From Verrucomicrobiota bacterium (lineage in GTDB: Bacteria > Verrucomicrobiota > Verrucomicrobiia > Limisphaerales > SXTU01): 38,141 nt of DNA. A program made the position numbers and the translations under genes. The notes beneath the pieces are model-generated. The model did not search any database. It saw only the letters and a program-made list of their open reading frames with translations, and was not told the origin of the DNA. The stretch lies in assembly GCA_016235545.1 (NCBI GenBank), contig JACRKB010000083.1, positions 1 through 38,141 on the forward strand, written 5' to 3'. This document shows, piece after piece, positions 28,444 through 35,911 of the stretch (its first letter is position 1; the number at the start of each line of letters is the position of its first letter).

Positions 28444-28475
28444 ATCCGGGTTCATCAGTGTCCATCCGTGGTTAG
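28444..28475 (-). repeat. CACGGATGG-family short copy at the DUF1800 stop
   Basis: On the minus strand GCTAACCACGGATGGACACTGATGAACCCGGAT matches the head of the family copies at 738, 3818 and 15099. It starts exactly at the DUF1800 stop codon (TAA within GCTAACCACGG) and contains the ATG that opens the longer version of the zinc-ribbon ORF. Confidence 0.65.
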
Positions 28476-29998
28476 CACTTCTGGAAACGTGGCGAGGCCA
28501 GCAGCAGGGCGAGCGGGGCACCGGATTCCTTGCACGCGGTGATTTCGTCGGCACTCGGGGCGCGGCCGAGCAGGTGGGCCATCTGGTTTTCCTCGGTCGC
28601 GAAGCTGGCGCGGAGCTTGTCGGCGTCGAGCTTGGTTTCCTTGCCGAGTTCGTTCTTGGTCAGCGCGACGGCGAAGTTCCAGCGCCATAGCAGCGTGCCC
28701 AGCCACGGGGCGGCTTCCTCCGGGTAGCCGTCGGGCGTCGGGTAGTGGAAGGGCGCGTGGCCCATGCGCAGGAGGTAGTCCTGAATCGCGTGGCCCGCGT
28801 CGGTGGTGGCGTGCGTGGCGCGCAGCGTGGAGACGATGTAGTGGAACGGGCGCTTGAGCTTGTTGCCGCGCGTGGTGAGGAAGGCGTCGGTGGCGAAGAG
28901 CGCGCGCAGCGTGGCCGGGATGTCGCCACCGGACGCGATGAACTTCTCCGCGACCGTGCTGACGGCGGCGGCGGGCGGGGCGTCCGCGATGAAGCGCTGG
29001 CAGAGCTTGGTGGCGATGAACTTCGCGGTGGCCGGATGCAGGCCCACGATGCCGAGCACGGTGTCCAGTTCGGCGCGGCCCAGCTTCTCGATTTCCGCCG
29101 CGTTGGCCTTCTTCGGAATTGCCGGGATGACGTGACCGAGAACCACCTTTTCACCGCGGTCGTGCTGGAAGGGTTTGAACTCGACGCTGCCGAGGTTGAG
29201 CTTGCTGCGGTGCGTTTCCTGCACGGCCCAGCCGGTGAGGCAACGCGCGACTTCCATCACGTCCTTCTGCGAGTAGCCGCCGTGGACGCCGAGGGTGTGC
29301 AGTTCCAGCAGCTCGCGCGCGTAGTTTTCGTTGGGCTTGTCGGCGTCGTTGGCCTTCTTGTTCACGCGGCCGTCGAGATACCAGAGCATCGCGGGACTGA
29401 GCGCCGAGGCGCGGAGCATGGCGGGGAACTTGCCCAGCGCGTGGGCACGGATGACGTCGCGGTCGTCGGCGACCTTGAGCCACTTGGCGTCGCCCTTGGA
29501 GGGGTCAATGTTGAAGTGGTCGCTCCAGAAATTCACCATCACTTCGTAGAGCTGGCGTTCGGTGAAGACGGCGCGCAGCACGGTGCTGCGGACGAGGGCG
29601 TCGAGCAGGTGCTTCTCCTGATACTCGAAGAGTTCGCCGAGCGGCTCGTTGAGCAACTCGAAGCGGCGGGTGGCGTTCTCGCAGTTCGGGTCGTCAATCT
29701 TCTCGTGCGCGAGCTGCTGGTCGAGGAACGCGGCGAAGGCGGCTTCCTCGGTCACGCCGAGCTTGCGCGTGCGGTGGTAGTCCCAAGGCCGCGCGCCGAA
29801 GGTGAGGCGGTTCAACGCGTGCGAGACGAGGTCAATGTCCTTGCCGGTGGGCGTGGTGTAAGGGCCATCCGGCGGCGCGGCGGCGCGGCGTCCGGGCAGC
29901 AGCGCCGCGGGGACTTCGAGCTTGTCACAGCCGACGGCGACGGCGGCGAGCGACGCGGCGGAACCGGTCTGGAGGAAGTGGCGGCGGGAGAAGTTCAT
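28472..29998 (-). CDS. DUF1800 protein with Tat lipoprotein-like leader
   Basis: This is a 508-residue DUF1800 protein; the family is uncharacterised but almost always encoded beside DUF1501. The leader MNFSRRHFLQTGSAASLAAV carries a twin-arginine motif followed by AVAVGC, which could be a lipobox. DUF1800 landmarks include ALNRLTFGARPWDYHRTRKL, the conserved LYEVMVNFWSDHFNID, NENYARELLELHTLGVHGGY with QKDVMEVARCLTGW, KLCQRFIAD and FHYPTPDGYPEEAAPW. Length is typical. It is followed on the same strand by a small lower-GC gene, stacked palindromes and then the DUF1501 gene. The stop codon coincides with the edge of a dispersed repeat. Confidence 0.94.
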   Translation of the reverse strand: MNFSRRHFLQTGSAASLAAVAVGCDKLEVPAALLPGRRAAAPPDGPYTTPTGKDIDLVSHALNRLTFGARPWDYHRTRKLGVTEEAAFAAFLDQQLAHEKIDDPNCENATRRFELLNEPLGELFEYQEKHLLDALVRSTVLRAVFTERQLYEVMVNFWSDHFNIDPSKGDAKWLKVADDRDVIRAHALGKFPAMLRASALSPAMLWYLDGRVNKKANDADKPNENYARELLELHTLGVHGGYSQKDVMEVARCLTGWAVQETHRSKLNLGSVEFKPFQHDRGEKVVLGHVIPAIPKKANAAEIEKLGRAELDTVLGIVGLHPATAKFIATKLCQRFIADAPPAAAVSTVAEKFIASGGDIPATLRALFATDAFLTTRGNKLKRPFHYIVSTLRATHATTDAGHAIQDYLLRMGHAPFHYPTPDGYPEEAAPWLGTLLWRWNFAVALTKNELGKETKLDADKLRASFATEENQMAHLLGRAPSADEITACKESGAPLALLLASPRFQKC

Positions 29999-31114: not shown

Positions 31115-34100
31115 CTATGGGCGGCGCAGACGAAGGAAGAACGGCCCGCTGCCGAGCGAGTTCGTGGTCACGAAGTCGCTGTTGACGATGGACAGCGTGT
31201 TGGTCGCGTCCACCCAGTTTTGAAGGCCCAGATTTGTCGCTGTCTGGAGGATGAAAGCGGACGCGCTCACGGGCCAGGAGATGACCAGCTTTCCGCCGGA
31301 CAGGGAAAAGCTGAGCGTGGGCGTGACCGCGCCACCGATGAAGGAGTTGAACCGCATCACGAACAAATCCTCACCGCCCGCGCTCGTGGGAGTTCCGTTG
31401 CCCAGCGTGCCGGTGCCGGTGAAGTAGCCGGTCACGACCGCGTTGCCCGCTGCGTCGGCAGCGATGCCCAGGCCGGAGTCGCCGTTCAGGTCCGTGCCGC
31501 CCGCCTGCTGGGCGAAGGTGAAATTCCCGCTCGCGTCCAGCCGTGTCACGAAGGCGTCGAAGGTGCCGATGATGCCGCTCAAGTTGATTGCGCCAAACGA
31601 CGCGGCGCCGCCGAAGTAGCCGGTGACGTGGACGTTGCCGGAGGGGTCCACCGCCACGCCGCGCGCGGCGTCCGCGCTCTGGCCGCCGGCAGACCGCGCC
31701 CAGAGCGCGGAGCCGCTGGTGTTGAACTTGGCGATGAAAATGTCGGACGCCCCGCCGGCACTGGTTAGATTCGTGACGCCAAATGCAGCGGTGCCGCCAA
31801 ACTCGCCGACGATGTGCGCATTGCCGGCGGCGTCCACGGCGAGGCCGTTGGGCCGTTCATCGCCGGTGCCGCCTGCCTGGCGCACCCATAGCAGCGTTCC
31901 GGCTGGGTCAAGCTTGGAGAGGAAAACATCGCCGGAGCCGCGGTTGGTGAGCAGCACGCCGCCGAAGTCCGCCAACGGGCTGAGGAAGGTGCCGGTGACA
32001 TACACGTTGCCGGCCGCGTCCGAGCCGATGCCGGTGCCGGTGTCGTAAGTGCCGCCGCTGAAGCTGCCGGACTTGCGCGCCCACACGGGGTTGCCGGCGT
32101 TGTCATACTTGGCGACCAAGATGCGGCCCAAGTTCGTGAGCGCCGCCGTGCCGAAGGTGTCCTGCACGGAGCGCCCGGTGATCAGCACGTTGCCCGCCGG
32201 GTCCAGCGCGATGGCCTCGCCCGTGTCTGAGGTGAATTCCGCGCCAGTGCCGCGCACCCAGACCAGGTTGCCGGCGGAGTCGTATTTCGCGACGAAGATG
32301 TCCGCGTAGGAAGATGGGCTGCTGTTGCTCAGAGAAGTGGTGGAGAAGGTGGCGACGGCCTCGAAGCTGCCGGTGATGTAGCAGTTGCCGCTGGCATCCA
32401 CGGCGATGCCGGCCCCGGTGTCGAACCCGGGGCCGCCGGCCCTTCGAGCCCAAAGCAGTTGGCCGCTCCCGTCATGCTTGGCCACGAAGATGTCGCTCTG
32501 CCCGGCGCTGGTCAGCGTGGTCGCGCCGAAGGTGGCGGTGCCGTTGAAGGTGCCGGTGACGAAGGCGTTGCCCGCAGGGTCCAGCGCGATGGCGCGGCCG
32601 ACGTCAGAGCCGGAGCCGCCGGCGGTCGAGGCCCACGGCACTGTCACGCTCAGAGGCAGGACGGTGAGCACTGCGGCGGCGCTTGTGCGCTGGCCCAGCG
32701 CGTTGGCGACAGCCAGGGAATAGAGGCCGCTGTGCGAGGCGGCGGCGCTGGCGATGCTGAAGGCGGTGTTGGTCGCGCCGGGCAAATCCGCGCCGTTGAA
32801 GCGCCACTGGTAGGTGAATGGCGCGTTGCCCAGCACCGTGGCTGTGAAGGAAACCTGCGCGCCGGAGGTGACGATCCGGCTGGCCGGCGGGACCACGAAG
32901 AAGGGCGGCGAGTCCACCGTCAGCGTGGCGATGGAGCTGGTGACGGAGCCAAGCGAGTTGGTCACCACGACGGTGTAGCTGCCGGCGTTGGTGATCTGTG
33001 TCACGGGCAGGAACAGTGTGGAGCTGATCGCGCCGGGGACGGTGTTGCCGTTCAACAGCCAGCGGTAGGCCAGCGGTTCGGAGCCGGTGGCGGTGACGCT
33101 GAAGGTCACGGGGTCGCCCGCGACTGCGGCGATGCTTGCCGGCTGCGCTGTGATGGCCGGGGCCGAGTTGACGCCCAGCGTGGCGGTGGCGCTGAAGGTG
33201 AAGCCATTGGAGTTGGCGACGCGCGCGGCGTAACCGCCGGCCTGGGCGAGCTGGACGTTCGTGACGGTGAGCGTGATGTTGGTCTCGCCGGGCAGATTGA
33301 AGCCGTTGAAGCGCCACTGATATGTGAGCGGCGCGGCGCTGAAGGCAGTCAGGCTGAAGGTGGCGGTGGCGCCGGGATTGACTGTCACGTTCAACGGGTT
33401 GGCGGTGATGCGCGGCGGCAGAGTGTCACCGAGCAACTGGACTGCGGCGTTGGGCAGGAGCCAGACGCCCCGGCCCATCGTGCTGACGACCAGCGCGTCC
33501 GTGGCGGCATCGTAGTCCGTGTCCCAGACCAGCGCGTTGGGGAAGGTGCTGCTGACGCGGCTCCACACTCCGGGCTGGTCCGTGCGGGACAGGAAGATGC
33601 CCACGTCCGTGCCGACGAGGATTCCGTTGACGCCGAAGCCCGGCAGATAGCGCAGGCACCAGATGCGGCCCACGCCGGTGAGGTTGCCGGTGAGGTTGCT
33701 CCACGATGTGCCGCCGTTGGCCGTGCGATGGACGGACTGGCTGTCGCACACATACGCGGTCATGAAGTCGGCGGAGTCCAGTGCGATGGCGGTGACGGAA
33801 GTGCCGGGGAAGGGCGAGGTGGTCGGGTTCAGCGCGAGCGAGTTGTTGGTGCGCAGGAGCACCACGCTGCCTTCGCCGACGTAGAGCACGTCAGGATTGG
33901 CCGCGCCGTTGCGACGCCCGCCGTAGGCGAGCGGGGTGGGCGTGGCGTTGGCGAAAATGTTTGTGCCGACCACACGCAAGGTCTCGCCCTGGTCGAATGA
34001 TTCATACACGGCGACGGCCCCCACGAAGACGAGCCGCAGTGGGTCCACCGTGTTGATTTGCGCGGGGTTCACAAAATTTGGGAACTGGCGGAGGGAAACC

Positions 34101-35911
34101 CCATTCGTCACATTCAGCGCCGGAAAATCCACCTGCACCGCGTTGTTGGCCGCATCGAAGACCGTCCTCCGGAACCCGCCGATGTTTTGAAAGCTCGTGT
34201 AAGCCACGGAGAAGCCGGGCCGGCTGCGAGTCTCCACCGCCACGTCGCCACCGTCGCCGTTGTGCATCGCCAGCCACGCCTGCCCGCCGGGCGCGAGCTG
34301 GCGCGTCGTGCCGGTGTCCTGGTTGCCGGACATCACCACGCGCGCGTTGCCATCATAGGCCACGTCATGCGCCTCGGTGATCTGCAAGCCGGAGCCGTTG
34401 AGGGAAAACCAGTCGCCTGTGTTTGTGCGGGCGTTGGTGCGCTTCCAGATGCCGCCGTCGTCGCCCTCGAGCAGATTGCCCGCGGCGTCGAACGCCATGT
34501 CGCGCGAGTCCGCGTGCGGCGCGCTGCTGCTGGCCGTGCCGCCGCCCGCGGCACCGAGGTTGCGGGAGTGCGTGAGATGCACCCACTGGCTGCCGGGCGG
34601 CCGCGATGCATCACCTCGGAAGAGCCGGCCTGAAAAGTCCGTCGCGCCAATGGCGTTGGGGAAACCGAAGAAGTCATTGAAGCCCGCTGGCTGCCGGTCG
34701 CCGCCGACATACACGATGGTCGCGGTGGTCGGGTCCGCCGCGATGGAGAAGTGGATGGTGCCCTGGCTGCCGGGTCCGCCATCGCCCTTGGGCTTGGGAT
34801 GCACGCCCACGGAACCGCCGGCCTCATTCGTCTGCGGCGTGTCCATCAGCGTCCACGTCGTGCCACCGTCGGGCGAGAAGAACAGCCCGGCGAGCTGCCC
34901 ACGGTTGATGATGCCGACGAACACGTTGTTGTTCCGGCCCACGGCGATCTCGATGTTGCTGGTGGTGCCGGCGAGGATGAGCGCGTCCATCGCCGCGCTG
35001 CTCACGCGCGTCCACGTCGCGCCCGTGTCGCTCGATTTGTAGATGCCGTTGTTGGTGGAAAAGTTCAACGGCGCGTAGAGCACCGACTGGTTGACAGGGT
35101 CGGCGGTCAGGTCGTTGCAGACGCCGCCGGGCAGGCCGGTGCCCGCGCCTCCGGAGATTTGCGTGAAGGACGCGCCTCCGTTGACGCTGCGGAAGATGCC
35201 GGTGTTGGGCAGGGAGAAGATGTCGGCTGTGTTGACAGCGACGACGAGCGTGTTCCCCCGCGCCACCACGCCAGAGATGTTCTTGCCCGTGAGCAGGCCG
35301 CCGCCGTTGATCTCTGACCAGGTGCTGCCGCCGTTGACTGTGCGCTGGAGGCCAGTTCGGGGACCGCCCTCCTGCCCGAAACTGCTGAACCGGCCTATGC
35401 CAGCGACAATTGTGTTGTTCGCCCCGTCTGTCGGGTCGAACACCAGCGCGCCGATCGACAGGGAGCCGAGTTGGTCCGTCAGCGGAGTCCACGAGGGCGA
35501 GGCCGACTGAGCGTTGAGCGTGCGCCAGACGCCGCCGTTGACGGTGCCGATGAAGAGCGTGTTCGCATTGGCCGGGTGCGGCGCGACCACATGGACTGCG
35601 CCAGACACTGCATTGCTGAGTGCTGCGTTCTCCGATTGCCCGCCGAATGCCGGGCTGGGGCCTTGGGGAAGCCATGTGATGCTCGTCGAAAACGCGGGCG
35701 GCAGCGCACCCAGTGGAACTTGGTAAGCGGACGCTGCGACCGGCAGGCGTGCCGTGGCCGGCCCTTCGCCCGGTGGTGGAGCGAGCGGCTGCGTCCGGGC
35801 CACCCCTGCGAAAGCGCAAACCAAAGCTCCTGCGAGCCACCACCCGCCGCCGCGCCGCCAGTCAGAACAACGTTCTCGTCTGAGGCGGAATGTCAGCGAT
35901 GGGAAGAGCAT
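31115..35911 (-). CDS. Giant secreted BNR/Ig/SBBP-repeat surface protein
   Basis: This is a 1598-residue exported protein. A leader follows a basic stretch (WWLAGALVCAFAGVARTQ). Residues about 80-825 resemble sortilin/VPS10-type BNR beta-propellers, with repeated Asp-box-like turns (SVNGGASFTQI, SSDTGATWTRV, SPDGGTTWTLM, TANGGTSWSNL). Three Ig-like domains follow (about 828-1088, each with the YQWRFNG or YRWLLNG strand). Seven SBBP beta-propeller repeats (about 1090-1520) share the pattern DxGxxIAxDxxGNxxVTGxF then DIFVAKxDxxGxLLWAR. The C-terminal 70 residues (LSFSLSGGKLVISWPVSA ... FFLRLRRP) resemble the conserved end domain of many verrucomicrobial secreted proteins and may serve sorting or anchoring. 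It is probably an adhesive or carbohydrate-binding surface protein; no catalytic residues are recognised. Confidence 0.92.
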   Translation of the reverse strand: MLFPSLTFRLRRERCSDWRRGGGWWLAGALVCAFAGVARTQPLAPPPGEGPATARLPVAASAYQVPLGALPPAFSTSITWLPQGPSPAFGGQSENAALSNAVSGAVHVVAPHPANANTLFIGTVNGGVWRTLNAQSASPSWTPLTDQLGSLSIGALVFDPTDGANNTIVAGIGRFSSFGQEGGPRTGLQRTVNGGSTWSEINGGGLLTGKNISGVVARGNTLVVAVNTADIFSLPNTGIFRSVNGGASFTQISGGAGTGLPGGVCNDLTADPVNQSVLYAPLNFSTNNGIYKSSDTGATWTRVSSAAMDALILAGTTSNIEIAVGRNNNVFVGIINRGQLAGLFFSPDGGTTWTLMDTPQTNEAGGSVGVHPKPKGDGGPGSQGTIHFSIAADPTTATIVYVGGDRQPAGFNDFFGFPNAIGATDFSGRLFRGDASRPPGSQWVHLTHSRNLGAAGGGTASSSAPHADSRDMAFDAAGNLLEGDDGGIWKRTNARTNTGDWFSLNGSGLQITEAHDVAYDGNARVVMSGNQDTGTTRQLAPGGQAWLAMHNGDGGDVAVETRSRPGFSVAYTSFQNIGGFRRTVFDAANNAVQVDFPALNVTNGVSLRQFPNFVNPAQINTVDPLRLVFVGAVAVYESFDQGETLRVVGTNIFANATPTPLAYGGRRNGAANPDVLYVGEGSVVLLRTNNSLALNPTTSPFPGTSVTAIALDSADFMTAYVCDSQSVHRTANGGTSWSNLTGNLTGVGRIWCLRYLPGFGVNGILVGTDVGIFLSRTDQPGVWSRVSSTFPNALVWDTDYDAATDALVVSTMGRGVWLLPNAAVQLLGDTLPPRITANPLNVTVNPGATATFSLTAFSAAPLTYQWRFNGFNLPGETNITLTVTNVQLAQAGGYAARVANSNGFTFSATATLGVNSAPAITAQPASIAAVAGDPVTFSVTATGSEPLAYRWLLNGNTVPGAISSTLFLPVTQITNAGSYTVVVTNSLGSVTSSIATLTVDSPPFFVVPPASRIVTSGAQVSFTATVLGNAPFTYQWRFNGADLPGATNTAFSIASAAASHSGLYSLAVANALGQRTSAAAVLTVLPLSVTVPWASTAGGSGSDVGRAIALDPAGNAFVTGTFNGTATFGATTLTSAGQSDIFVAKHDGSGQLLWARRAGGPGFDTGAGIAVDASGNCYITGSFEAVATFSTTSLSNSSPSSYADIFVAKYDSAGNLVWVRGTGAEFTSDTGEAIALDPAGNVLITGRSVQDTFGTAALTNLGRILVAKYDNAGNPVWARKSGSFSGGTYDTGTGIGSDAAGNVYVTGTFLSPLADFGGVLLTNRGSGDVFLSKLDPAGTLLWVRQAGGTGDERPNGLAVDAAGNAHIVGEFGGTAAFGVTNLTSAGGASDIFIAKFNTSGSALWARSAGGQSADAARGVAVDPSGNVHVTGYFGGAASFGAINLSGIIGTFDAFVTRLDASGNFTFAQQAGGTDLNGDSGLGIAADAAGNAVVTGYFTGTGTLGNGTPTSAGGEDLFVMRFNSFIGGAVTPTLSFSLSGGKLVISWPVSASAFILQTATNLGLQNWVDATNTLSIVNSDFVTTNSLGSGPFFLRLRRP

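Follow-up and report, generated by a model that had tools for sequence, protein, structure and literature searches.

Several described systems come close to the protein end considered here. The C-terminal sorting domain of the T9SS (PF18962/TIGR04183) is a beta-sandwich of ~70 residues that follows a linker, stands at the end of varied Sec-exported proteins and occurs in dozens of copies per genome. The PEP-CTERM tail of the exosortase systems, another C-terminal feature of secreted proteins, consists of a short motif, a transmembrane helix and a basic tail. FN3 and Ig modules (PF00041, Ig_3) are extracellular beta-sandwiches, and the secretin operons of the PilMNOPQ and type II secretion kind encode PilM, PilN/O/P-like proteins and a secretin. 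We analysed a window of 38,141 nucleotides, a stretch of one contig from a Verrucomicrobiota bacterium of the order Limisphaerales, in which a gene for a 1598-residue protein ends in a C-terminal domain (CTD) that can be compared with each of these systems. Like the T9SS domain, the CTD is a terminal beta-sandwich (as predicted) of ~70 residues behind a linker, recurs dozens of times per genome and is borne by varied proteins for which Sec export is predicted; it differs in lacking any sequence match to that domain, in that some copies are internal, and in its F-[FY]-R-L end strand. It shares with PEP-CTERM a C-terminal place on secreted proteins and the same genomes, but is a soluble folded domain. 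With the FN3 and Ig modules it has in common the predicted beta-sandwich and a W-P and Y/F-x-L-[QE] strand pattern, while it differs in falling under Pfam detection, in apparently missing the final strand and in being almost always terminal. We favour, with a rough probability of 0.42, the reading of the CTD as a C-terminal domain for delivery or attachment that uses a secretin route.

Table 1. Features of the 1598-residue protein, with positions in the window.
Feature	Residues	Positions	Strand	Basis and remarks
Whole gene	1598 aa	31115..35911	-	ATG start at 35911, TAG stop at 31115-31117
Signal peptide	1 to ~40	35792..35911	-	Sequence and crude rule; cleavage site putative
BNR/Asp-box propeller region	~75-825	33437..35689	-	Asp-box motifs
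Three Ig domains (Ig_3/I-set)	~830-1087	32651..33424	-	Pfam Ig_3
Seven-bladed SBBP beta-propeller	~1095-1528	31328..32629	-	Pfam, motifs, AlphaFold and Foldseek
Flexible linker	1525-1532	31316..31339	-	pLDDT <50 at model positions 441-448
CTD, VTPTLSFSLSGG...FFLRLRRP	1529-1598	31118..31327	-	Profile searches

The protein is a mosaic (Table 1) that begins with a predicted signal peptide, in which an arginine-rich n-region is joined to the hydrophobic core GWWLAGALVCAFAGVA. Motif reading with the pattern S/T-x-D/N-x-G-x-S/T-F/W/L places six Asp boxes in the BNR region, at residues 191, 242, 293, 346, 638 and 730. This region matches Pfam Sortilin-Vps10 at 5.6e-4 and 19.2 bits, under the Pfam cut-off of 33, and the NCBIfam F510_1955 glycosylhydrolase family at 3.2e-15, likewise under its cut-off. 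Pfam Ig_3 recognises three stretches in the Ig region (2.9e-27), which also finds Ig structures in the PDB at 1e-40. The middle domain is a propeller of the SBBP family (PF06739): Pfam scores six stretches (3.6e-26), seven blades of the form D..GN...tG can be read by motif, and the AlphaFold model of residues 1085-1598 gives the propeller a pLDDT of mostly 80-97, with the CylK propeller as its nearest fold (Foldseek E = 1.6e-24). In the same model the CTD stands apart from the propeller, beyond the disordered linker, at lower confidence. The original prediction described a chimera of a sortilin-like BNR propeller, three Ig domains, seven SBBP repeats and a short C-terminal domain; the Ig domains, the SBBP repeats and the separate CTD hold, and the sortilin-like label fits loosely, with a match below the Pfam cut-off and six Asp boxes present. 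Lying 3' of the gene on the minus strand are an unannotated 180-residue open reading frame and a DUF1800 protein (28472-29998, minus strand; Pfam 3.5e-116), neither of which suggests a function for the CTD.

The last 70 residues of the protein match nothing in Pfam or NCBIfam. A set of 31 CTD members searched against the same two collections at E<=1 gave no meaningful family match, fn3 (PF00041) being unmatched by all 31 in Pfam, and a sequence search of the PDB with a CTD profile returned nothing convincing. AlphaFold models the CTD as an all-beta sandwich of six to seven strands (pLDDT 79.9, pTM 0.62). Foldseek gave weak matches only, none at E<=1e-3 and with a query-normalised TM of at most 0.54 among the 50 listed, and many of them are Ig, FN3 and CBM56 proteins. 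As these matches are weak, though many are to Ig and FN3 proteins, an Ig/FN3-like beta-sandwich is the likely but not certain fold class of the CTD. The conserved positions (W, P, Y/F, L, W and F-Y-R-L) are core-like, and the DSSP assignment of the model suggests that a final strand is apparently missing. To the extent of the Pfam, NCBIfam and PDB profile searches the CTD is an undescribed domain, and it may be a remote relative of a known beta-sandwich family; a search of the open literature found no description of such a tail.

The CTD recurs widely. In its own genome the 70-residue sequence finds three close paralogues at 41-44% identity, and among 58 related genomes a narrow profile built from four sequences matched 54, the richest of them with 49 copies. 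A broad profile of 31 sequences found 25 places in the own genome at E<=1, of which 12 are at E<=2e-4, and across the phylum it matched 35 of 195 sampled genomes, in 27 of 108 genera. The recurrence of significant E-values in the own genome, in the relatives and across the phylum shows that the likeness of these tails is no coincidence, and the family is common in the Limisphaerales. These searches bear out the proposal that many secreted proteins in the phylum have ends like this tail. When the last 90 residues of 510 own-genome genes, a sample enriched for domain-bearing contigs, were compared with one another by BLAST, two of the clusters (12 and 5 members) corresponded to the CTD on otherwise unrelated partners; the remaining printed clusters of three or more members, judged by eye, appear to be ordinary protein families. 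The own genome was sampled over ~0.9 Mb, partly picked around CTD matches. Within ~554 kb of own contigs, comprising the window and 37 stretches mostly chosen by contig number, the final profile clearly scores only the 1598-residue protein, and two unscored look-alikes lie in one stretch (L162).

The partners of the CTD are diverse and include subtilase with P-domain, GH26, RCC1, NHL, SBBP, Ig, LamG, beta-helix and DUF1800 proteins. In the closest paralogues of the 1598-residue protein the SBBP propeller and the CTD are retained and the modules upstream, towards the N terminus, are swapped. We rejected a role in closing the propeller because the CTD is also borne by proteins that have no propeller, among them subtilases, GH26 and beta-helix proteins, and because a disordered linker intervenes. 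A crude signal-peptide rule is passed by 38 of 42 carriers; two of the other four have a signal-like hydrophobic N terminus by eye, one has an apparently truncated frame, and the last is L113. This support is weak, since roughly half of the remaining genes pass the rule too. As to the refuting condition that the CTD occurs equally in cytoplasmic proteins, no clear cytoplasmic carrier was found among the 42. The converse concern, that the domain might be absent from other secreted proteins, is justified in part, since most of them lack it.

Position and end motif are the most regular properties of the family. Among 114 copies, 102 lie within five residues of the stop and a further 7 within 15; five are clearly internal or N-terminal. 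The pattern [FYL][FYWL][RQ][LVIMA] is matched by 94 of 101 distinct CTD ends, and in 82 of these 2-4 further residues follow, often as a basic tail such as RKP. When the 510 sampled genes were searched for [FY][FY]R[LVI]x(2-5)-COOH, 16 had it, namely 15 scored CTD carriers and one look-alike. All of the internal and N-terminal copies keep the FYRL strand, so that at least part of the motif's role lies in folding. A CTD-like domain stands straight after the signal peptide in three genes (L119 3089-5254, plus strand; L111 4143-7244, minus strand; L115 3911-5200, plus strand), one of which encodes a DUF1800-like protein; the matches in L119 and L115 are weak.

It is chiefly because the internal and N-terminal copies share the strand motif that a second explanation is nearly as likely as a delivery domain. 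Here the CTD would be a passive extracellular module of FN3/Ig-like type, for adhesion, glycan binding or as an end cap, which tends to be C-terminal and carries no sorting information. The existence of those copies is in keeping with this explanation, as are the Ig, FN3 and CBM56 beta-sandwiches among the weak Foldseek matches, the core-like character of the conserved positions and the other extracellular modules that the CTD adjoins. However, ~95% of the copies are terminal, at a near-fixed distance from the carboxyl end, which is not expected of ordinary extracellular modules, and the own genome has hardly any trace of the classical fn3 family, with one marginal match.

Gene order adds a further observation. 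On contig C147 of the own genome (L010 2050-13660, minus strand) a PilM-N-O-P-secretin operon is followed by two CTD-bearing NHL-propeller genes, with ~20 bp between the secretin and the first CTD gene and an overlap of 4 bp between the two. Pfam supports PilM (1.7e-29) and the secretin (3.6e-40) in this operon, and PilN, PilO and PilP are predicted from gene order and size. We compared 20 PilMNO-secretin loci in this and other genomes, picked by the size of the secretin open reading frame and not by CTD content, except for C147, which was found via its CTD genes. In 12 of the 20 the strand that encodes the secretin has a CTD-bearing gene further downstream; one other locus (L188) has the NHL gene but runs off the contig, and seven have no CTD neighbour. 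The arrangement is a conserved linkage with a putative cargo relation. It resembles the PilMNOPQ and type II secretion operons in its PilM, predicted PilN/O/P-like genes and secretin, and differs from them in the NHL-propeller CTD genes that come next. Secretins occur in all 58 relatives, including genomes with no CTD match, and operons without the CTD make up seven of the 20 loci, so no tight co-occurrence of CTD and secretin emerged, and the linkage may be a property of one conserved NHL family and not of the CTD. The gene that follows the operon in one genome (L195 6109-6708, plus strand) has a PEP-CTERM-like tail and not a CTD.

Taken together, the terminal position, the unrelated partners and the operon link lead us to prefer, narrowly, a delivery or attachment domain to a passive module. 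As a delivery domain, the CTD would act on a mosaic of BNR propeller, three Ig domains and SBBP propeller exported via Sec, and would be recognised after the Sec step, during or after passage of the outer membrane. A PilMNO-secretin machine, of type IV pilus or type II-like character, would be the likeliest gate, because its operon repeatedly precedes genes for CTD-bearing propeller proteins. More speculatively, the CTD could complete a sheet with a partner, since the last strand, F-[FY]-R-L, stops 2-5 residues from the carboxyl end and the domain may thus lack a closing strand. The original prediction, that the C-terminal domain is an uncharacterised sorting or anchoring signal, is a good hypothesis and a plausible one: its near-obligate terminal position, its unrelated secreted partners and the secretin-operon linkage of some carriers speak for it. 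Evidence against a strict sorting signal comes from the ~5% of copies that are internal or N-terminal and from the small share of secreted proteins that bear the domain, and our search for a dedicated sorting system, while it brought out the secretin operon linkage, found no dedicated sorting protein or processing enzyme. A stronger version, in which the order has a C-terminal sorting system of its own, with the CTD as cargo domain of the PilMNO-secretin machine in an evolutionarily separate parallel to the T9SS, seems to us unlikely.

The open literature that we searched says little on how giant proteins reach the outside of the cell in these bacteria. With a CTD profile, some of the secreted enzymes and adhesins of many genomes could be picked out, and the secretin operon link provides a direct, testable hypothesis on the exit route of the CTD proteins.

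We consider it improbable that the CTD marks cargo for a T9SS-like system that has a putative outer-membrane translocon of its own. The logic would be that of T9SS cargo, with a Sec signal, varied modules and a terminal beta-sandwich of ~70 residues in dozens of copies per genome. Against this, none of the 31 CTD members matched Por_Secre_tail, TIGR04183 or TIGR04131 in Pfam and NCBIfam at E<=1, and of the T9SS markers sought in the relatives, Por_Secre_tail and SprA, a single stray Por_Secre_tail match turned up, in one of 58. SprA (PF14349) was found in none of the 58, in a search that by itself proves no absence because no control genome gave a match. The stray tail match (L177; G048:C183:5815-6039) is in a genome that is less than 90% complete and is possibly contamination. 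As a T9SS sorting domain proper the CTD was rejected, on the missing profile matches and the single tail match in the relatives.

Processing of the CTD by exosortase as a PEP-CTERM-like signal is very hard to credit, for although exosortase occurs in 54 of 58 relatives and genomes with more PEP-CTERM proteins also have more CTDs after correction for genome size (partial r 0.62, and 0.51 when each family is represented by one genome, a correlation confounded by secretome size and relatedness), the defining tripartite tail is missing, the all-beta model having no PEP motif and no hydrophobic C-terminal transmembrane helix, no CTD member has a PEP-CTERM match in Pfam, PEP-CTERM proteins coexist with CTD proteins as a separate set, and the number of CTDs does not track that of exosortases once genome size is taken into account (r 0.16, p 0.22).

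The survey of secretins also brought up an unusually large one. A literature search found no description of a secretin with many Secretin_N domains such as that encoded on contig C276 of the own genome (L157 908-12775, plus strand), which has 3955 residues, with 32 scored Secretin_N stretches ahead of one C-terminal Secretin domain; to our knowledge, its N-domains are far more numerous than those of known secretins. Secretin matches within open frames of ~2600-5155 residues occur in at least 15 of the relatives.
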